Below are positions 28,210-54,882 of a stretch of DNA of 64,000 nucleotides, piece after piece (the first letter of the stretch is position 1; the number at the start of each line of letters is the position of its first letter). The notes below the pieces were generated by a model. The model did not search any database. It worked only from the letters and a program-made list of their open reading frames with translations, and was not told where the DNA came from. The position numbers were made by a program, and so were the translations under genes. The stretch comes from Apostichopus japonicus (Eukaryota > Echinodermata > Holothuroidea > Aspidochirotida > Stichopodidae), in NCBI RefSeq assembly GCF_037975245.1, contig NC_092574.1:24208713-24272712 (forward strand), written 5' to 3'.

Positions 28210-29400
28210 AGTGGGGGGGGGGGGGGTCAGGGAGGGGGTTTGTGTGAAAATTGTGGGATGGTGGGCAGGGAGGTAGGAGAATGGGGTGGGAGGGAGGAAT
28301 ATGGTGGAAGGGAGGAATATGGTGGAAGGAAGGGAGGAGTGTGGGGCAGGGAGGGAGGAGTATGAGGGCAGGGAGGAAGGAGAATGTGGGCAGGGAGGAA
28401 GGAGAATGGGGTGGGAGGGAGTGATATGGTGGAAAGGAGGAAGGATTGTGGGGCAGGGAGGGATATGGTGGAAGACAGGGAGGATTGTGGGGCAGGGAGT
28501 GAGGAGTATGAGGGCAGGGAGGAAGGAGAATGGGAGGAATATGGTGGAAGGGAGGGAGGAGTGTGGGGCAGGGAGGGAGGAGAATGTGGGCAGGGAGGAA
28601 GGAGAATGGGGTGGGAGGGAGTGATATGGTGGAAAGGAGGAAGGATTGTGGGGCAGGGAGGGATATGGTGGAAGACAGGGAGGATTGTGGGGCAGGGAGT
28701 GAGGAGTATGAGGGCAGGGAGGAAGGAGAATGGGATGGGAGGAATATGGTGGAAGGGAGGGAGGAGTGTGGGGCAGGGAGGAGGAGAATGTGGGCAGGGA
28801 GGAAGGAGAATGGGGTGGGAGGGAGTGATATGGTGGAAAGGAGGAAGGATTGTGGGGCAGGGAGGGATATGGTGGAAGACAGGGAGGATTGTGGGGCAGG
28901 GAGTGAGGAGTATGAGGGCAGGGAGGAAGGAGAATGGGATGGGAGGAATATGGTGGAAGGGAGGGAGGAGTGTGGGGCAGGGAGGGAGGAGAATGTGGGC
29001 AGGGAGGAAGGAGAATGGGATGGAAGGGAGGAATAGGGTGGAAAGGAGGAAGGATTGTGGGGCAGGGAGGGAGGAGTATGAGGGCAGGGAGGAAGGAGAA
29101 TGAGATGGGAGGAGGAATATGGTGGAAGGGAGGGAAGAGTGTGGGGCAGGGAGGGAGGAGTATGAGGGCAGGGAGGAAGGAGAATGGGGTGGGAGGGAGT
29201 GATATGGTGGAAAGGAGGAAGGATTGTGGGGCAGGGAGGGAGGAGTATGAGGGCAGGGAGGAAGGAGAATGAGATGGGAGGAGGAATATGGTGGAAGGGA
29301 GGGAAGAGTGTGGGGCAGGGAGGGAGGAGTATGAGGGCAGGGAGGAAGGAGAATGAGATGGGAGGGAGGAATACTGTGGAAGGGAGGTACACAGTGGCAG
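28210..29400 (+). repeat. Purine-rich minisatellite with ~200-bp higher-order structure
   Basis: Built from short modules such as GGAGGAATATGGTGGAAG, GGGCAGGGAGG and GTGTGGGGCAGGGAG. A longer block beginning AATGGGGTGGGAGGGAGTGA recurs near 28,404, 28,604, 28,808 and 29,184, so spacing is about 200-205 bp for the first three. Both strands stay open in several frames because the modules lack stops; the long Pro/Ser-rich reverse reading frames are not taken as genes. Confidence 0.9.
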
Positions 29401-42229: not shown

Positions 42230-45200
42230 CTGTGACGAAATAGAAAGAAATATTCATTATGAATCCCACATTTGAATAGCATCCAACTAGTACCCAACGT
42301 AACTACTGGTTACTAACGTACCTAGTTCACATTCCATATAACTAACACAACTTCCAGTGAACCATCCATAAAAGCATGTCCATCTAAAAAAGTACCGGGC
42401 TAAAGTTTCTAGCCAATAACAATGTCTTCTGAAAACCTTTTCCCCTATCATAAGCCCTGTTTATGTAGATATCTGTAATACTATTGTTTTCTTGTGGATA
42501 TGATAATTCTTTATTTCTTGCCATTAATCAATTTTATACGCATTAATACAAATTATTGCTGTAATAAATTGCCTTAATAAAGTCAACAACAATGTCTTTT
42601 GCAAACCTTTTTCTCCATATCATAAGCCCTGTTTATGTAGATATCTGTAATATTACTGTTTTCTTGTGGATATGATAATTCTTTATTTCTTGCCATTCAT
42701 CAATTTTATACACATTAATACAAATTATTGCTGTTATACAATTATTGTGGACATCATTGGACTGTCTGTATTTAACTTGAGAAGTTTCTTACGCATTTGG
42801 CCAAAACATTTTTTCTCAATGCTTTTATGGTCTCCCTGGCAACAATCTTGCTACCGATGGCTGCTTGTATTGCTACTTCGTAGAGTTGTCTCGGAATGGA
42901 CTCTTTCAGTTTGGCACAGACCGCTTTGCCAACTTCCCTGGACTTAGTTCTGTGAACAATGATTGCTAGTTCGTCGACCTCCTTGCTGTTAAGCAAGATA
43001 CGAAGCTTTATCAAGTCGGCTTCTTGATAACCGCTATCCTCATAATCAAAGCTGAAACAAAAACAGATTTAAACAATTTGGGATTGAGCAAAGATGTCAC
43101 AAAAGATTTAATGTAAAATTAACAAATTAAGGATTATGTCATAACTAAGAATTTTTTTTGATCTGCTGCTGCTGAAGTTATCCCATTATCTCAATAAGCA
43201 GGAAAGGTATTGAACCGCAACTCTCACTTAAGAGATTTGAGTTATCTGTCAAATGGAACCTTGGATATATGTGAACAGTTTCAGCCAGACTATAAATTGA
43301 TACAAAAGAGTTTGTCAAGTCACATAAATGTCCCCACAATTCTAAACAATATTTAACAGGGGTAAATAATGCTAATACATGAACGTACAGTTTATGAACA
43401 TGCAGTTATCGAGAGTTGATAACTAAGAATGACAAAAAGAAACTTATTTCGTAAAATTAGCTGAGGGTTTGTAAATTGATCTGTTTATTACCTTGCATAA
43501 CCTGAGGACACCGACTTTAACTGGTCGAAAAAATCCACCACAACTTCATTTAGTGGTAATCTGTACTTGAGGTAGATTCTACTACTATCCACGTACGTAA
43601 GACTCTCTTGCTCACCTCTCTTCCTCTGCATTGACGAAAGGAAAAACAAAAAGTCTGTGAAGTTACAATCTAGAATGTTTGGTTATCTCAGATTGATTAA
43701 GTCTGGAATAAAGTGGTTTCATTGATGTAGTGTGAATGCAAAGGCTGAAAATGGAGGGAGGGGGAAGAGGAGGGGGGGGAAGAGGGGTAGGAAGGGGATA
43801 GTGTGCAAATAGTACTTCATGTCAAATGGTATAAAATGTTTACAATTTTTGTGGACTCTTTGAATCAAATTTGATAATTTTTAACTGTTCAGGTTGTACT
43901 GTACATATCAGTCAAACATTTATGTCCTATACACTGACTTTAATGTTTTGTAATATTCTGTCTGTCACTGGGTGGATTGGGGGGGGGGGAAGGATGTTCT
44001 CCCCTTGATTTTGTTCTGGTGGGGGTGGGGGGGTGTACAGGTAAGATATGTGGCTGTCCCCCCTGCCTTATATAGTTATAGAGTACTTACAGTACAAAGG
44101 TTTATAACTTCTCTAAGATATTCATCTGGAGTGATGATAGTACCCAGGACCATAGGCTCATAGAAACACTCGGCTTGTTGGGGGTCAGGAAACTGTGGAT
44201 GGAATGATAAGCTGAAGTTAGGTGACAACAAAGCAATTGTAAAAATTATCACCTCATATGTGATTTTGAACTGACTCATTCTCTTAATCCTTTCTCTCCC
44301 CCCCCCCCTTCAATTCCTTGCCTCTGAAACAGAGATATTTCAGTGTAGAGTCATCAAATCCAATTTAAATGATTTTCATTGTAATTACTGAGTAACAGCA
44401 GATGTATGAGTTGTTTGGTGCATTGTGCACATTATTGCAAGCATATGTATACATACTATGCAAATCATAATATAATTCAAACTTATTCTATTTCTAAACA
44501 AACTTGAAAATTTGAGCATTGCATGGAAACTGTTAATATTTACTCTTAGCTATCAGTTTTGGAGGTTACAATCAAGCACACGTAAGAACACAAACAATTG
44601 AGCTTAACGAAAATCTATCACAAACGCAGCTTTGGAAAAGCAACCTAGAGTAGAGAAGCCTCTTTGCTGCAAATAGTTTAGCCCCTATGACTGGTCATGG
44701 AAAATTTCATAATTTATTCTGGAAATAAGTTGTTTCACCCATGGAAGGATTAAAGGTAAGAATGCAGAAAGAATCATAAAGATAATAATTACAAAACCAA
44801 CTCAATAATTCTCTTACATTGGCAGGGTTCTGTATAATGATTTCTTGGTTAGGTCCGTATAGCTTTTGGTTTGTTTTGGTGGATTTAAGCTTTGATTTAA
44901 ATGGAACGCTCGGAACGGTGACTATCACATTTGCGTTGTACTCCTGTTCCAGCCTCTGGTTAAAGACGTCCATGTGTAGTAAGCCCAGGAAGCCAAGCCT
45001 CCAACCTTGGCCTAATGCTGGGCTGGAAAAATAATTGCCAGTGGTAAAAGAAATTATAATTAAAAGTGATATGTTTAACTCACAAGACCCTCACCAGAAA
45101 CAGGAGTATTACAATTAAGGAAGAACATATATATGTACTTCGGTATACACAGTCTTGCTATTTCATTTGATGTCAGTCTGTCAATGATATCACACATACC

Positions 45201-48200
45201 TGCTGTCACTGTTTACTGTGACACTACTATCATTTAATATCAGTCTATCAATGATATCACACATACCTGCTGTCTCTGTTGACTGTGACACTGCTATCAT
45301 TTAATGTCGGTCTATCAATGATATCACACATACCTGCTGTCCCTGTTTACTGTGACACTACTATCATTTAATGTCAGTCTATCAATGATATCACACATAC
45401 CTGCTGTCCCTGTTGACTGTGACACTGCTATCATTTAATGTCAGTCTGTCGATGATATCACACATACCTGCTGTCCCTGTTGACTGTGACACTGCTATCA
45501 TTTAATATCAGTCTATCAATGATATCACACATACCTGCTGTCCCTGTTGACTGTGACACTGCTATCATTTAATATCAGTCTATCAATGATATCACACATA
45601 CCTGCTGTCCCTGTTGACTGTGACACTGCTATCATTTAATGTCAGTCTATCAATGATATCACACATACCTGCTGTCCCTGTTGACTGTGACACTGCTATC
45701 ATTTAATGTTAGTCTATCAATGATATCACACATACCTGCTGTCTCTGTTGACTGTGACACTGCTATCATTTAATGTCAGTCTATCAATGATATCACACAT
45801 ACCTGCTGTCCCTGTTGACTGTGACACTGCTATCATTTAATGTTAGTCTATCAATGATATCACACATACCTGCTGTCCCTGTTGACTGTGACAATGCTAT
45901 CATTTAATGTTAGTCTATCAATGATATCACACGTATCTGCTGTCACTGTTGACGGGGAACACTGCTATCATTTAATATTAGTCTATCAATGATATCACAC
46001 ATACCTGCTGTCCCTGTTGACTGTGACACTGCTATCATTTAATGTCAGTCTATCAATGATATCACACATACCTGCTGTCCCTGTTGACTGTGACACTGCT
46101 ATCATATCATGTCAGTCTATCAATGATATCACACATACCTGCTGTCTCTGTTGACTGTGACACTGCTATCATATCATGTCAGTCTATCAATGATATCACA
46201 CATACCTGCTGTCCCTGTTGACTGTGACACTGCTGTCATTTAATATCAGTCTATCAATGATATCACACATACCTGCTGTCTCTGTTGACTGTGACACTGC
46301 TATCATTTAATATCAGTCTATCAATGATATCACACATACCTGCTGTCTCTGTTGACTGTGACACTGCTGTCATTTAATGTCAGTCTATCAATAGCAGACC
46401 GAAGAGATAAATACTCAGACTGGTCCATTGGGTAGAGGCCGGCAAATACCTTAGAAAAAATATAAAATGTTCATGAATTAATTTTCACATCCAGCGCCCC
46501 CACACAACCAAACACCTGCTATGTGATCACGCGATGTGTGCATATCAATTATTGGTAAATAAATGCTCAGTGATAAGTGAAGTAGGCCTTTATTTTAATG
46601 CTGTACCTCACACTGGCTGACTAGACTGACATATGACAATCAGTTAAAACCAACCACTTGATTGAAGATAGTGTGTAGGTATTAGCAATATTCCGTTCAG
46701 CTTCAGGAAGCATTTTAGCCTTGGGTAGGTAATATCTACTCTACAAAACTTTGAACACATGAGGTGAATTAAAACAAAAAGATGCATAAAAATAAAGAAT
46801 TTGAAACTCACCATTGGCTTGGCAGCTCTAAATCCAGGCAAAGCTTCGACTGGATGGCCTGGCTTGTAAAATGTATCGCCAATACTAGCTTCTCTGATAT
46901 TATGCATTCCAGCAACCACATAGCCAACTTGTCCAGCAAGTCTAATGAATGAAGAAAGAAAACAGTAAAACAAATCTCAGTTAACCTTTATCCATATGTT
47001 GTGACGGCGTTACTTCGTGTCCAAGGAGGCTTAAACTTAAAGGCTGAGTCTGGTGAAAGACAATGTTAAAAACTTATATTGAACTTTTGCTCCTTTTCTA
47101 CCACTTACAATAGTAGAAACATCTCTAAAACTTAAGTCAGAAACTTCCTTTATTTATATGGAAATTAACATATTACTTACAGCTGCATTGTGGACTTTTG
47201 ATCTGGGTACATAATCCCTAAATCTTGAACTTCATAGGTTTTCTCAGAAAATGCTGATTGTATTTTGTCTCCTCTTTGCAGCCTCCCATCCATTACGGCT
47301 AGGTTTACGATTGCCCCTCTGTATCTGTTATACCAAGAGTCAAAGAGCAGCGCCCTCAGTGGTCGCTCAGGGTCACTAGGGGGGCTGCGGAGCAACAATG
47401 TTTGGAAAGCAAAGACAAAGAGCATCGTAGATCGATATCAATTATAAATTGATCTTCTAAACTTTAGAAGACTCATATAATTTAGTCCCTATTTACTAAG
47501 AATCACCACTTACAAGACAGCAGGTTTTCACTTTTACTTCCACAAATATACAAAAATGCAAATATCAAACTCACCAACAGACAGTTCAAAACAGACACAG
47601 ACCATATATTCAAATGAGAATAATCAATAGTGCAACAAATAGCAAAGATGTTATTATTGTACTACATCACAAGAGTTGGTCCTCTGCCAGATAGAGTCGA
47701 TTGCTGGACGTTCGTGATTCATGCATGTCAGAGCAATCATGGCTTCAGAGTACTTTTTGAATTATGGTTTAAATTATTTATGGACAGCAAGTAGTTTAAT
47801 ACTGCTTTCCTGATTTCTTACTATACATTCAGTGAGTTTATCACACCATTTGCATTCAAACTTCACCCTATATGGACACTGCTTATAACCATCCTCTGGG
47901 TTTCAATTAATTTTATGAAGATAACATTGAATATGAATTTCATCCATGAGTAACCTTTGGCAAACCAAAATTGCAAAGTTGCTATCAATGAGCACTTCTT
48001 AAACACGCATGACTATTCAGTAAGGATGTTGAATTATTCAGTTCTTTACCTTCGCAACACTCCTTACCTTGGAATTCGGTTAATCACAGCTGGCAGAATG
48101 GAACTAACACCAGTCCCTTGTTTTGCTGATATGTGCAAAATGTCTTTCTTATTGATATCAAATAAAGACTCTATTTGGTTAGCCACACTTTCTGGGTTTG

Positions 48201-51200
48201 CATTCTTCAAATCAATCTGCAAACCGAAATAAAGAAAAAGAAAAGAAAACAAGAAGACAAGATGAAAGAAAAAAAAAACAGATGACAAAGTGCAGTACTT
48301 TCATTAAGACTGAAAATGTTGTTTACTGTATGCAAAGGCGACAGAGGAAGCAACCAAGAAATATAAACAAATTATAGCTAAAGCTTTTATTTAATCTCTC
48401 TCTGTACATTGTAAATAATAACCTTTCTTATTTTCAGACTATGTACATTTTGTCTTTGCCAGGTATCCAGAGAGATATGAGTGATTAACTTGTTAACATA
48501 ACTTGTCAAAGTGTGCAAAATATAGGGGAGCCACATGTAAACTAGTGTAGCAGCAACAAGGGCGGCGGAACCGGGGGGGCACAGGGGGCACGTGCCCCCC
48601 CACTTTTCCTCAGATTAAAAATGTGCCCTTTTTCTACATAAAATTTCTAAATAACCAGAATGAAAACATTTCATGGTTCCTTGCTGCTGTTCATTAGTTC
48701 CATTCATAGGGAAAATTTCTAACAAAGCCCTAATACAACAACAGTAATTTATGCTCACAAACTTTTGTTGCCAAAGTAATGCTAAGCCCTGATATCAATT
48801 GCAACACACATCAGTGTGTGAAGACTATCTACCATTATCATCATACCAAGTTTGACGAAATTCCGACTAGCAATAGTAGCCAAGTAATTGCAATTTGGAG
48901 TATTTCACGTTTGACCCCATGACCTCATTAATATTCATGAAATGAGCACCAAAATCAACAGGGTTAATCTACTTACTATGGGCCACCCACTCACCAAGTA
49001 TGGTAATGATTGGTCATTCCCTTGTTGAGTTATTGTGCATACAAAACTTTTCATAACGAAATAATGCTAGGCCCCCCCCCCCCTTATAAACATGCATGAT
49101 ATCAATTGCAACACACATCAGTGTGCGGAGACTATCTACCAATATCATCATACCAAGTTTGACGAAATTCCAATAAATAGTAGCCAAGTTATTGCAACTT
49201 GGGAGTTTTTCACGTCTGACCCGTGACCTCATTAATATTTTTTAACTTTGACCTCGTATAACTTCGCACACGAAGGTCACACGGGGGTCAACCTATTGAC
49301 ATTTATGATCAGAAGGCACCTTTGACATCTGAAAATAGCATCGAAACTGTAAAAATCCCCAAAACATGAAAAGGTCACCAGAGGTCAAATTGAGGTCAAG
49401 GGTCACCCAGATGCGGGTCGACAATTGGATTAAATTGAAGCAACTCCCAACCCTAACGGACAATTCGTTCTCAAGTTATCGCAAAAATACTAGTTTTTTA
49501 TCATTAATTGACCTTTGGTGACCTCGGATCAAATGACCGTTAAGTTTGAAAATATTCCCCTATACCATTTGCAACTTGTCCCAAAATATCAACCGTGTCA
49601 CACCTTGGAACTGGGAATTATTGCACTAAATGTCTGAAAATTTACTTTGACCTCATATAACTTCACACACAAAGGTCACCTGGGGTACACCTATTGACAT
49701 TTTTGATTGGTGAGACGTGAATATAGCATCAAAACTGTAAAAATTCAAACATTTTTTCTTTGCCCATTTTCTCACCCAAAATACTAGTTTTTTAACATTA
49801 ATTGACCTTTGATGACCTCGGATCACATGACCGTTAAGTTTGAAAATATTCCTCTATACCATTTGCAACTTGTCCCAAAATATCAACCTTGTTACACCTT
49901 GGCCCTGGGAGTTATTGCATTAAATGTCTGAAAATTAACTTTGACCTTGTATAACTTTACACACAAAGGTCACCTGGGTGTCAACCCATTGACATTTTTG
50001 ATCGTAAGGTACCTTTGATATCCAAATCTAGCATCAAAACCAAACATTTTCTTTTTTGCCCGTTTTCTCCCAAACTAAGCACATTTTTTCTAATGTGACC
50101 TTTGACCTTGGTTTCAAATGTAGTTTGATCTGCTGATTCCAAAAATCAACACGATAAGTCTGTACAGCCATCCTAACTCCGACCGAAAACTTTGACCCCT
50201 TATAAGTTCGCACACGAAGGTCACACGGGGGTCAACCTATTGATATTTATGATCGGAAGGTACCTTTGACATCTGAAAATAGCATCGAAACTGTAAAAAT
50301 CCCCAAAACATGAAAAGGTCACCAGAGGTCAAATTGAGGTCAAGGGTCACCCAGATGTGGGTCGACAATTGGATTACACTGAAGCAACTCCCAACCCTAA
50401 CGGACAATTCGTTCTCAAGTTATCGCAAAAAAACTAGTTTTTTAACACTAATTGACCTTTGGTGACCTCAGATCACATGACCGTTAAGTTTCAAAATGTT
50501 TCCCTAACCAGTTCACAACTTGTCCCAAAATATCAACCTTGTCGCACATTGGCACTGGGAGTTATTGCAGTTTTAGTATTTTGGGTTTTTGGACCATAAC
50601 TGACCTTTGGTGACCTTTGTGGGCACCAAAAACAATAGGGTTCATCTACTCACTATGGGCCACCCACCCACCAAGTTTGATCATGATCAGTCAATCCCTT
50701 GTTGAGTTATCGTGCATACAAGCTAAAGTGTCACACACACACACACACACACGCATCCACATACACACACGCCAACCTGAATACATAGGTTCCTTTGCTT
50801 TTAGCAAGGAACCAAAAAAGCGAAACCCACGTCGAATGAAATATTTCGGGAAGTTTTGTTTACTACCACAATCGTAGGAGCCCAATTTGATTTGGGGGGC
50901 TGTAACGACTTGCCCGAAAAATATTACCAAAATTTTTCGCGCGTTCAACATGTTAATGTGCATATCATATAGGCATGCGTTGGTTATTGCATCGCATGCC
51001 AATAACATGCAATCATTTTTGCCGTGTTATAACCCTTCCAAATCGGTTATAATTATTGGGAAAGTCGTTACAATAATAATGATCATAATAATATCAGTTT
51101 AACCATTGAAAAACACATAGAAAATTACTTTTCTTTCAGTATTTTGACATATTTCATTTGCTTTCATGCATGTATCGATCGCGTGTGCAGGGACTTGGAC

Positions 51201-54053
51201 TTTATAATGATTTCACCTCATTTTGTTTTTTTTTCCTTGTTTCCCAATTTGCACATTAGATACTGCAGTGCTAGTATGCATTGTTTCCTTGGGGAGGGGG
51301 GGGGGCTGCGTTGATGGAGTGATGTGTATACGCAAATAAGATAATACAATAAGAGTTAATAGGGTACTAAATATCAGTCCAATCGAATTTCTGCAAAGTG
51401 CCCTTCGACGTTGGTGCCCCCCCAGATTCAAAGTGCTTCCGCCGCCCTTGAGCAGCAATGCTGCAGATTCTCAATACTTTGCAAGTGAAAGGGATATTCC
51501 AGTAGCAGAAATATATTGCTAAATAGAAATACTGTTAAGTTTTCCAATCTTTTAGGTGAAAACCAAATCATCACAGCATTTTCGCATGACAAAGATAATA
51601 TGCACAACAGCATTATTAAATGCTGTTGGCAACAGCATTGTGAAATGATTTCATTTGACAATTAAGCTGATATTATCTGCTTCTTTTCTACAAATTATTT
51701 ATGCACAGAGGGAAACAGTATTTCTAACAAGCTGCATTTTGACAAAATTGTAAATACAGAGAACATTCACATTCACAGATTCCAAATGTAACTATAAACT
51801 TTTATTAGACCAATCACAAGACAAAATCTAATCATGTCTTTTCTTTTCATGCATGACATCAACAAGCTGGTCACATTAGTCAACCTACCTTATTTATTAC
51901 TGGTATTATGTGCAGATCAGATTCAAATGCCAGATAAAAGTTTGCAACTGTCTGAGCCTGCACACCTTGGTTTGCATCAACCACAAGGAGGACGCCCTGA
52001 CATGCTGCTAATGACCTGGAAACCTCATAGTTGAAATCAACATGCCCCTGTAATGTGGAAATCAACTTACATAAATTCAAATAAATTTGATAGAACAAGG
52101 TAAACAAATATGCACCTTTCGAGTTTCGAAGTTATGAAACCATCCCTCTTTATAATGAGGTTGGTCCAAACTAACTAACATACTGATAAATTCTCTTCAA
52201 AATTCATATTTCAGTTTACTGTAAATTTTACAGAGCTGATTAAGTCTGCATAGACTTTTACGATTCTGAGGAACACCTGCTAATTAGCAATATTACCTAA
52301 AATGAGACACATTTTGGGATAAAGCAGTAAACAGTGTCCATGAGCAACAGTGCATGAGCACATATAAAAATATAACCTGTGGTTATAAACAGCTTACAGA
52401 GCACAAAATTCTGAAACCCTGGAACCTTTATGAATAATTCCAACTGAAAGGCCTCTTCCAAAGCCTTCTCCCTCCCCTCTCCTGTATAGTCTAGTATGAT
52501 TTTGAAATACTCACTGGGGTGTCAATTAAATTCAAAAGATATCTCTCTCCCTCGTGTTCGTAAATCATTGATGCTGTTTGTGCTTTCACAGTGATTCCTC
52601 TCTCCTTTTCAACTTGTAATTTGTCCAAAAACTGTTTATTTTCCACTTTGCTGGAGATGGTACCTGTCAACAGGTTAAATGATATTTGAAGATGGATACA
52701 TCATCAACCTTTTAAAATATTTCAAAGCAATATGAAAAAGTGATCATGATTGAAACTAGCTTTATAGCAGAACAATTTAGCATTAACCACAACTGGTTCT
52801 AAAGTTGTACAGTATGTTGCATTTAACTGAAGTGATGTATTATGAAACAGTGCTACTTAATGAAAGATAATTTCAATGAAAGATTGCTGGAATCTATGAA
52901 AATATATTCAAATACATACAATCCGTTAATGGCTCACAAATGTACTTATATTGAAACATATTCAACTGTGCAGAAGTCTATTTTCATTAACTGTGTGCCT
53001 GTTATATATATATATGGCATAAACGTGTAACAGTTAAAAAGTTTTGCAAATGAAATAGCCCTGAAAAGATGCACTTTTCTTCCTTTGGCTACTAAAGGAA
53101 AACATTTCTCGACAGGTACACCATTTTTGTAAAAGGCCATGGCCAGGTCACTTTCCTTTCTTGGATGGAAACATTGTTGATTCACTCCTCACACTATGGC
53201 TCTCCCTGTGTCCTACTTCTATACAGCCACCTGTTCAGAACAACAATAGTGGATTTGATTTATTAGCTTTGAAACCTCACCTGTTAGTTCCAGTAATCTG
53301 TCTGCCAGAGTGCTCTTACCATGGTCAACATGGGCAATTATACTGAAGTTCCTGATGTGAGACACCGGAAACTGAGACATATCAAGTTCAACATCTGCCT
53401 GAGAAAAGACAAAGTATAAACTGTAGGCTGCTGAAGAATGTATGAAACATTTGAAAATGTACACATTTTCAGCTGAAATCTGACATAAGAATTCTAAATG
53501 ATATACTTCTTAGATCAGTACTGTGGCAGAAATTATATGTAGTGAGTAAAGCAATATTTGTTCTTAAATCATTCAATAGGCTGCATACCAAATAGAGCAA
53601 GTTGGATGTTTAACACTGTTGGTACATGGAAACATATATAACCCAGTGTTGAGTGCTGGTATTTCCGTATTGGTTTTTCAGTATCATTCACCATCCAAGG
53701 CACCAGTGTATCACAGAGGACTAACTTGTTGCATTACAGTACTGGTACCAATTTGATGAATTGGTATCCAGCCGGATTTGGTACCTCGATTCTTCTGGAA
53801 ATAGCGTACCAGAGGCAGAACTGATAAGACTAGTTGAAGATGATATGCTACTCACTTGCTGGGAAAATGTTTTTGATGCTGAATATGGCTTCATCTGTAT
53901 ACACGTTTGTACTCGCCTTGGTGTTGGACAATTGACCAATCTGAACTTTCGGTAGGAGAGACAGCATGCACTGATTCTAGTACTACTGGTTACAGTGACA
54001 TTTCTGCAGGGGACAACAGCTTTAGCTGTCCTACAAATCTTAGAAAACAACAT
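42104..54053 (-). CDS. GUF1: GUF1: mitochondrial translation factor GTPase (LepA/EF4 family), complete, 13 exons
   Basis: Spliced CDS is 2,043 nt, 680 aa (human about 669 aa). GUF1 is the mitochondrial counterpart of bacterial LepA/EF4, a ribosome-binding GTPase of the matrix side. All G motifs are intact: G1 AHVDHGKST (88-96), RGIT of switch I in exon 3, DTPGH (153-157, split by intron 3), NKID (207-210, split by intron 4), SAK (238-240). The later EF-G-like domains and the LepA-type basic C-terminal domain follow, ending in LSVLKR. The first 66 residues are basic with no acidic residue, as expected of a mitochondrial presequence. The ATG is fixed by an in-frame TAG upstream in the same exon. 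Exons (descending): 54053-53856, 53398-53281, 52663-52515, 52047-51889, 48216-48068, 47384-47181, 46941-46812, 46449-46340, 45022-44818, 44192-44091, 43625-43492, 43051-42793, 42229-42104. Every junction is GT-AG and in frame. Introns 4 and 8 are swollen by a transposon and a minisatellite. Confidence 0.95.
42418..42736 (+). repeat. 170-bp tandem duplication, GUF1 intron 12
   Basis: Copy 1 from 42,418 and copy 2 from 42,588; shared CATAAGCCCTGTTTATGTAG and TTCTTTATTTCTTGCCATT. Copy 2 runs up to about 57 bp below the exon 12 donor. Confidence 0.88.
42793..43051 (-). CDS. GUF1: GUF1 exon 12 (residues 554-639), C-terminal domain
   Basis: Contains [36 protein letters not shown] and [11 protein letters not shown], all hallmark LepA C-terminal sequences. 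Donor TGC|GTAAGA, phase 0. Confidence 0.96.
43492..43625 (-). CDS. GUF1: GUF1 exon 11 (residues 509-552)
   Basis: Contains [20 protein letters not shown] and VSSGYA, matching the human [23 protein letters not shown] block. Ends phase 2 (Ser553 split). Confidence 0.95.
44091..44192 (-). CDS. GUF1: GUF1 exon 10 (residues 475-508)
   Basis: Encodes [20 protein letters not shown], conserved in domain V of LepA proteins. Phase 0 at both ends. Donor ACT|GTAAGT. Confidence 0.95.
44818..45022 (-). CDS. GUF1: GUF1 exon 9 (residues 407-474)
   Basis: Contains [20 protein letters not shown] followed by [20 protein letters not shown], the LepA domain III hallmark ([16 protein letters not shown] in human). 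Donor AAT|GTAAGA, phase 0. Confidence 0.95.
45158..46392 (-). repeat. 67-bp minisatellite derived from the GUF1 exon 8 / intron 8 junction, 18 copies
   Basis: The unit is 53 nt identical or nearly identical to the end of exon 8 (ATTGATAGACTG to ACAGCAG) plus 14 nt of intron (GTATGTGTGATATC). One copy is the true exon end (46,392-46,326); 17 more fill intron 8. Spacing is about 67 bp throughout (18 occurrences of the donor block between 45,191 and 46,340). Sixteen of the 17 extra copies keep the donor GT; in the copy near 45,928-45,939 it is changed to AT. Confidence 0.95.
46340..46449 (-). CDS. GUF1: GUF1 exon 8 (residues 370-405); its 3' end is the parent of the intron 8 minisatellite
   Basis: Encodes [20 protein letters not shown], then [16 protein letters not shown]. 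Ends phase 2 at donor CAG|GTATGTG (46,340/46,339). The last 53 nt and the first 14 nt of the intron are tandemly repeated downstream. This donor is taken as the real one because running on through it gives an immediate stop (AGG TAT GTG TGA), while joining it to exon 9 restores the expected S-ALGxGW sequence. Confidence 0.93.
46812..46941 (-). CDS. GUF1: GUF1 exon 7 (residues 327-369)
   Basis: Encodes [16 protein letters not shown] and [10 protein letters not shown], the conserved end of domain II. Donor ATG|GTGAGT, phase 0. Confidence 0.95.
47181..47384 (-). CDS. GUF1: GUF1 exon 6 (residues 259-325), domain II beta-barrel
   Basis: Contains [20 protein letters not shown] and [15 protein letters not shown], matching the barrel that follows the G domain. 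Ends phase 2 (Leu326 split). Donor CT|GTAAGT. Confidence 0.95.
48068..48216 (-). CDS. GUF1: GUF1 exon 5 (residues 209-257), G5
   Basis: Starts [20 protein letters not shown] and carries SAKQGTG (G5). Ends phase 2 (AG|C gives Ser258). Donor AAG|GTAAGG. Confidence 0.95.
48557..51450. mobile_element. 2.9-kb non-autonomous hAT-like transposon in GUF1 intron 4
   Basis: Terminal inverted repeats CAAGGGCGGCGGAA and TTCCGCCGCCCTTG, flanked by a perfect 8-bp target-site duplication AGCAGCAA (48,549-48,556 and 51,451-51,458). There is no transposase-length ORF. The interior has an approximately 250-bp direct duplication (about 49,245-49,500 and 50,204-50,440), many AGGTCA/TGACCT words, a CA tract at 50,731-50,751, and a palindrome GGGGGCACGTGCCCCC near the left end. 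The 8-bp duplication is the hAT signature. Confidence 0.88.
51889..52047 (-). CDS. GUF1: GUF1 exon 4 (residues 156-208), G3 end and NK of G4
   Basis: Starts [20 protein letters not shown] and ends IIPVINK. The NKID motif is completed by exon 5. Donor AAG|GTAGGT, phase 0. The following intron is 3.67 kb because of a transposon. Confidence 0.95.
52515..52663 (-). CDS. GUF1: GUF1 exon 3 (residues 107-155), switch I and start of G3
   Basis: Contains [19 protein letters not shown] and ends YLLNLIDTP. The first two bases of DTPGH-coding G3 lie here and the rest in exon 4. Acceptor TTGACAG, donor CCA|GTGAGT, phase 0. Confidence 0.95.
53281..53398 (-). CDS. GUF1: GUF1 exon 2 (residues 67-105), P-loop
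   Basis: Encodes [20 protein letters not shown] and then the P-loop [16 protein letters not shown]. Acceptor TTCTCAG, donor ACAG|GTGAGG, ends phase 1 (Gly106 split). Confidence 0.95.
53856..54053 (-). CDS. GUF1: GUF1 exon 1 (residues 1-66), mitochondrial presequence
   Basis: Begins [20 protein letters not shown]; rich in Arg, Lys, Ser and Thr, with no Asp or Glu. Donor is CAA|GTGAGT, phase 0. This exon is the least conserved part and was placed by ATG, frame and donor, not by homology. Confidence 0.8.
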
Positions 54054-54517: not shown

Positions 54518-54882
54518 CAAGGGCGTAGGAACCGGGGGGATGGAGGGGATGGGGGGCTCCAGCCCCCCCCAGTGAAAAACATGGGGGGCGGAAGCATCAT
54601 TCCGCTCCGCGAGTCAGAAAACCCCTTTTTCATTTCCAAATGAGAAAAAAAAATCTCATTTGGAGCACCAAATTGCATCTATAAGGCCAGGTGAAAATGA
54701 AAATTATTTACAAAATGGATTGGGTGTTGAAGTGTGCTATATTGCACCAAATTGCATCTGAGGCCACCTGGAAATGCAAAACAATTCCAAAGGGGAGGGG
54801 GACCCCTCCCCTTAGACCCCTCCCCAGGCCGGTCATCAGTCTTCAGCCCCCCTCCACTCAAAAGTACCTTCCTACGTCACTG
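54518..54882 (-). mobile_element. hAT-like MITE copy 5 (365 bp) in the GUF1-EIF5B spacer
   Basis: Reverse orientation; perfect 8-bp duplication TTCCTCTT (54,510-54,517 and 54,883-54,890). It sits about 460 bp upstream of the GUF1 start codon. Confidence 0.92.

Follow-up and report, generated by a model that had tools for sequence, protein, structure and literature searches.

An apparent mirage-type minisatellite built from copies of an exon-intron junction in intron 8 of GUF1 in Apostichopus japonicus

The stretch of DNA analysed here, referred to as the window, comprises 64,000 nucleotides of Apostichopus japonicus contig NC_092574.1 (positions 24,208,713 to 24,272,712) and carries on its minus strand GUF1, which encodes the mitochondrial translation factor EF4/LepA and whose intron 8 contains a long 67-bp minisatellite. 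An earlier reading of the sequence alone had named this gene, and the assignment was borne out by a 608-residue protein joined from 12 exon translations, which matched TIGR01393 (lepA) at 842.7 bits against a cut-off of 533.9. The genome (671.6 Mb in 35 contigs) gave 15 GUF1 matches, 12 of which are exons of one locus (on contig C14), and the remaining three, on C13 and 49-51% identical, probably represent other GTPases. The number 'exon 8' assumes that the ATG exon near 54053 is exon 1. The features concerned, in window coordinates, are:

46340..46449, minus strand: GUF1 exon 8, 110 nt, with a phase-2 end at AG/GTATGTG; in-frame translation VFAGLYP...NRDS
45023..46339, minus strand: GUF1 intron 8, 1317 nt, GT...AG, of which the array makes up 1177 nt
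44818..45022, minus strand: GUF1 exon 9, 205 nt, acceptor tttttccag/CCCAGC
45163..46392, minus strand: 67-bp minisatellite, 18 full units plus a 23-nt stub
46326..46392, minus strand: unit 0, the genic copy, which contains the real donor (46339; from register and unit alignment)
45923..45990, minus strand: unit 6, a decayed copy with CAG/ATACGTG (donor GT changed to AT), a 1-nt insertion and 7 base changes from the consensus
45163..45185, minus strand: truncated last copy, 23 nt (from register and unit alignment)

The 67-bp unit joins the final 53 nt of exon 8 to the first 14 nt of intron 8, a composition proposed by the sequence-only reading and on which register and alignment agree. Units 1-17 are all intronic and one of them, unit 6, is 68 nt long; alignment also upheld the earlier count of 17 extra copies, 16 of which retain an intact donor (CAG/GTATGTG, present in 17/18 full units). 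Within the window the word CAGGTATGTG was counted 17 times on the minus strand and never on the plus strand. Tandem Repeats Finder placed the array at 45163-46392 (period 67, 18.3 copies, 95% matches, score 2192), so that the start given previously, 45158, lies 5 bases past the array edge at 45163. Compared with the 671.6-Mb genome, in a search that ignores very common words, the array matched only itself. No copies of the array or of exon 8 were found in the window outside 45000-46460, where the tail of intron 8 had one 23-bp match.

Joined through the first donor (donor 1), exons 8 and 9 aligned without gaps to the bacterial EF4 chain 5imq_B (86/105 residues, E 4.5e-23), which supports the end of exon 8 as first described; donor 1 is therefore the donor able to make the protein. 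Every intact downstream donor is identical to donor 1 over nine bases, and read-through to any of the 16 meets the immediate stop that had been foreseen, a single first stop common to all (AGG TAT GTG TGA, codon 40 of the exon-8 reading). Donor 1 is predicted to be the sole donor that yields the correct reading frame, and hence protein. It had been argued that the first donor must be favoured or transcripts would be lost; the part of this that concerns protein stands, and loss of the transcripts themselves would be a further, conditional step. The array as coding sequence was rejected, every one of the six frames holding between 22 and 44 stops, and exon 8 plus two intronic units gave an RNA fold no more stable than that of shuffled sequence (z +0.94, with 170 of 200 shuffles folding at least as well).

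The spacing of successive intact donors, 67 nt in 15 of 16 steps and 135 nt in one, might suit recursive splicing, in which the intron would be removed stepwise, each intact unit acting as a GT...AG segment ending CAG/GTATGTG, and recursive sites do have an AG/GT core. We give this explanation almost no credence. At each of the 17 intact unit ends, among them the genic one, the 16-nt tract holds 4-5 pyrimidines, against 10-14 in real GUF1 acceptors, and an extra AG lies 3 nt upstream, against 18-93 nt in the real acceptors (10 of GUF1 were compared, that of exon 3, which was not located, being left out); moreover, fly recursive segments are nearly all longer than 1 kb. As candidate ratchet points the 17 intact unit ends were rejected, a 3' splice-site motif directly before AG/GT being absent from every one.

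Arrays of this sort have precedents. Lancelet genes are described as carrying 'mirages', minisatellite-like tandem duplications of exon-intron boundaries found in Adh3 (units of 10-72 bp), globins (150-160 bp), troponin C and PGBD5 (60 and 108 bp), which show length and somatic instability and reportedly leave regular splicing undisturbed though many repeats hold AG/GT (PMC3087553, PMC3902484). The GUF1 unit likewise straddles the boundary in each of its 18 full copies, 17 of them with AG/GT; its 67 bp fall inside the 10-160 bp range given there, the genic copy stands at the array edge, and several genes per genome are affected here too (5/19 arrays, among the matches listed by the genome search described below, have Pfam support). 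It differs in lying in another gene and in having 18 copies, where 6 and 3 are reported for BflGb6, one of the mirage-bearing globins (BflGb6/BflGb9). The mirages cited are from cephalochordates; a search of the present genome for the GFP family (PF01353) had no match, which weighs slightly against a lancelet host, and mollusc haemocyanin had none either, but both families were also without a match in all 14 controls. Undisturbed splicing is a lancelet observation, whereas the GUF1 side of the comparison is coding continuity only, in one assembly. In human coagulation factor VII (F7), intron 7 is described as containing a variable number of 37-bp repeats, the first of which holds the real donor, with only the most upstream donor used (PMC6627357); this first-donor use, termed 'oriented scanning', was tested by Borensztajn 2006, as cited there. 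GUF1 shares the near-identical 5' splice sites behind the real one, 16 of them intact, but F7 is a vertebrate gene with a 37-bp rather than a 67-bp unit, and first-donor use, tested in F7, would in GUF1 be required for the protein. The GUF1 array belongs to a kind already described in lancelet mirages and in human factor VII intron 7.

Two further systems are related more loosely. A study of human paralogs reports internal tandem repeats at exon-intron boundaries, minisatellites that overlap splice junctions and can form novel introns (PMC2812944); the GUF1 array is likewise a minisatellite over a splice junction, but intron 8 ends at an acceptor of its own that lies beyond the repeats. Intron gain by tandem genomic duplication involves a duplicated segment containing AGGT (PMC3443670), and AGGT is present in the GUF1 repeat; intron 8, however, begins and ends in dissimilar sequence, with a best local alignment score of 5 between its ends that was reached by 98.8% of 1000 shuffles, and this origin was rejected.

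Perhaps the array instead tunes unproductive splicing, so that use of a downstream donor would lead to a stop and degradation, and copy number would set the level of GUF1. The 16 intact downstream donors, which match donor 1 at all nine bases and lead at once to a stop, would allow this, but it is very unlikely, given that F7 intron 7 and the amphioxus mirages are reported to splice at the genic site.

Variation among the units bears on how the array arose. Leaving out unit 6, the mean pairwise difference among the 17 units was 4.2% and likeness fell with distance between units (Mantel r 0.306, p 0.0028, 5000 permutations); that neighbouring units are most alike fits tandem growth, because stepwise local duplication predicts such a pattern. 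That the array was created during assembly is highly improbable. One amphioxus mirage is noted to have been misassembled in a draft genome, but here 15/18 units are distinct (unit 6 compared minus its extra base), unit 6 contains an indel and the genome, in so few contigs for its size, is probably at chromosome scale.

Some features of this variation weigh against an array that merely drifts. Two differences, neither of which alters the protein, separate the exon copy from the consensus, and 7/13 changes between this copy and the others, again without unit 6, are synonymous, an excess whose binomial p ranges from 0.009 when no transition bias is assumed to 0.075 at kappa 6. The synonymous share may therefore weakly exceed what is expected of freely drifting intron copies, and exchange between a selected exon copy and the intron copies may, equally weakly, account for it. 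On the donor side (positions 51-67) 0/17 columns vary without unit 6, against 12/50 elsewhere (p 0.028), which could hint at donor constraint. With unit 6 kept the figures become 2/17 and 14/50 (p 0.32); the invariance is lost once this unit is counted and is therefore not taken as evidence of constraint.

Another explanation is that the array is functional, a row of sites for the U1 small nuclear ribonucleoprotein behind the real donor that would strengthen exon 8 definition or block premature polyadenylation. The high proportion of intact intronic donors would be in keeping with this, and the window has 29 minus-strand sites scoring at least as high as the real donor, 17 of which (the real donor counted) lie inside the array, by a donor scoring matrix. 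U1 binding downstream of a 5' splice site can enhance exon definition in PAH (PMC5933811). We nevertheless regard a function as unlikely. The exon 8 donor scores 9.73 with the same matrix and ranks 5/11 among the scored GUF1 donors, so it has no special need of help; the donor of unit 6 is broken, donor constraint is not significant across all units, and similar arrays occur in unrelated genes.

Other repeats were seen in the window. GUF1 intron 4 contains several dispersed direct repeats (48790-50721; 75-93% alike, up to 383 bp), and a 172-bp tandem duplication (42414-42743; 1.9 copies, 92% matches) lies in the interval that separates GUF1 exon 12 from the apparent last exon. At 28258-29387 there is a large G-rich minisatellite with nested periods of 22, 60, 84, 169 and 204 bp.

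The sequence-only reading held that few introns are built in this way, a view that did not survive comparison with the mirages and human F7 intron 7 described above, or a search of this genome for runs of three AGGTAWGT words spaced by 48-78 bases, repeated with CAGGTATGT. The arrays examined come from the matches listed, which extend to contigs C2 and C10, GUF1 on C14 lying outside; by our own count these matches include 20 distinct arrays, the starts of 19 of which were examined, with exon ends inferred from open frames and donors. In five of the 19 the array starts at an exon end and the peptide of that exon exceeds its Pfam cut-off, and a further 5/19 (L044, L048, L050, L051, L055) look like exon-end arrays:

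L042, G000:C1:11371500-11378400: RWD, 24.2 bits against a cut-off of 22.8; exon share of the unit 4 nt
L043: PSD13_N, 53 bits against 27; exon share 11 nt
L045, G000:C2:3106400-3110700: Ldh_2, 50.5 bits against 38.8; 67-bp unit, 36 nt of it exonic and 31 nt intronic
L046: Glyco_transf_21, 25.8 bits against 21.7; exon share 33 nt
L052, G000:C7:22913700-22914400: zf-C2H2, 44.5 bits against 25.2; exon share 8 nt
L050, G000:C3:8821050-8821800: EF hand just below cut-off, 24.8 against 25.4; calbindin-like by eye
L048: an exon we take to be serine palmitoyltransferase-like, with no Pfam match at 24-26 residues; exon share 2 nt
L044, L051, L055: exon-like frames with no Pfam match over cut-off; exon shares 8, 5 and 14 nt
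L047, L049, L058: reading-frame evidence at the array start ambiguous
L040, L041, L053, L054, L056, L057: no exon-like frame at the array start

The exon part of the unit is 4-36 nt in the five Pfam-supported arrays, against 53 nt in GUF1, and the shortest shares amount to no more than the splice signal itself. At L042 the RWD-domain exon is followed by 16 AG/GTAWGT donors in 499 bp, mostly 26-34 bp apart and denser than in GUF1, and the unit recurs in a second array roughly 1 kb further on. The period of L045, in a malate/lactate dehydrogenase exon, equals that of GUF1, it would seem by coincidence. At L052 the zinc-finger exon has the donor CAG/GTAAAT and the repeats downstream carry CAG/GTATGT; its first donor looks weaker than the downstream copies, which would make it a natural test of first-donor choice. 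The EF-hand exon of L050 ends AAG/GTACGT, and the array behind it is degenerate, with repeats that carry GTATGT or GTACGT.

Genome-wide, AGGTAWGT triples showed no excess (636+431, where the reversed pattern gave 618+630), whereas CAGGTATGT triples numbered 140+78 against 23+22 for the backward pattern, the forward and backward counts for this word both being inflated by long arrays. The backward control for CAGGTATGT is poor because its single word is itself inflated, at 54,766 in the genome against 6,558 for CAGGTATGT. This backward word, TGTATGGAC (20,992 + 33,774 by strand, about 10x expectation), is probably part of an abundant repeat. Models from the window predicted 4,938 (base), 5,738 (dinucleotide) and 6,869 (trinucleotide) occurrences of CAGGTATGT, an excess over chance of none to about one quarter, which indicates roughly what fraction of these words are real donors; random seeding would therefore place up to about one quarter of arrays at real junctions. 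Among the 13 distinct CAGGTATGT arrays listed, three are Pfam-supported (L042, L043, L052), one is just under the cut-off (L050), two are exon-like (L051, L055), two ambiguous (L049, L058) and five without an exon (L041, L053, L054, L056, L057). This proportion of junction arrays is not clearly above what random seeding would give, although an excess is still compatible with it. It is doubtful that 5' splice sites here seed minisatellites more often than random DNA, making junction arrays a genome-wide class, possibly outside cephalochordates; if they do, these arrays would offer many natural tests of spliceosome choice among identical donors.

The anatomy of the array, its coding consequence, the single locus found and the recurrence of such arrays at other exon ends lead us to propose, with a probability of roughly 0.8, that the intron 8 array is a mirage-type minisatellite that grew by tandem duplication and is tolerated because the most upstream donor, alone in the correct frame, is chosen. 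The history we infer is one in which a 67-bp stretch across the exon 8/intron 8 border would have been duplicated in tandem, and the copies then amplified and partly homogenized through slippage, unequal exchange or conversion. In vivo the spliceosome would commit to the most upstream donor and the other 16 intact donors would leave within the excised intron, presumably without a function of their own. Unit 6 has a broken donor, and donor loss in a copy is therefore tolerated. The array thus has the look of repeat growth that the gene tolerates, not of a new device.

GUF1 thus presents a natural row of 17 donors of equal strength, only the first of which is compatible with protein, and so a clean test of first-donor choice. 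With several such genes in one genome, at least two of them (L050 and L052) with a differing first donor, the rule could be tested from ordinary RNA reads. The GUF1 array is, moreover, a further case of the sort that has been suggested to supply material for new introns.
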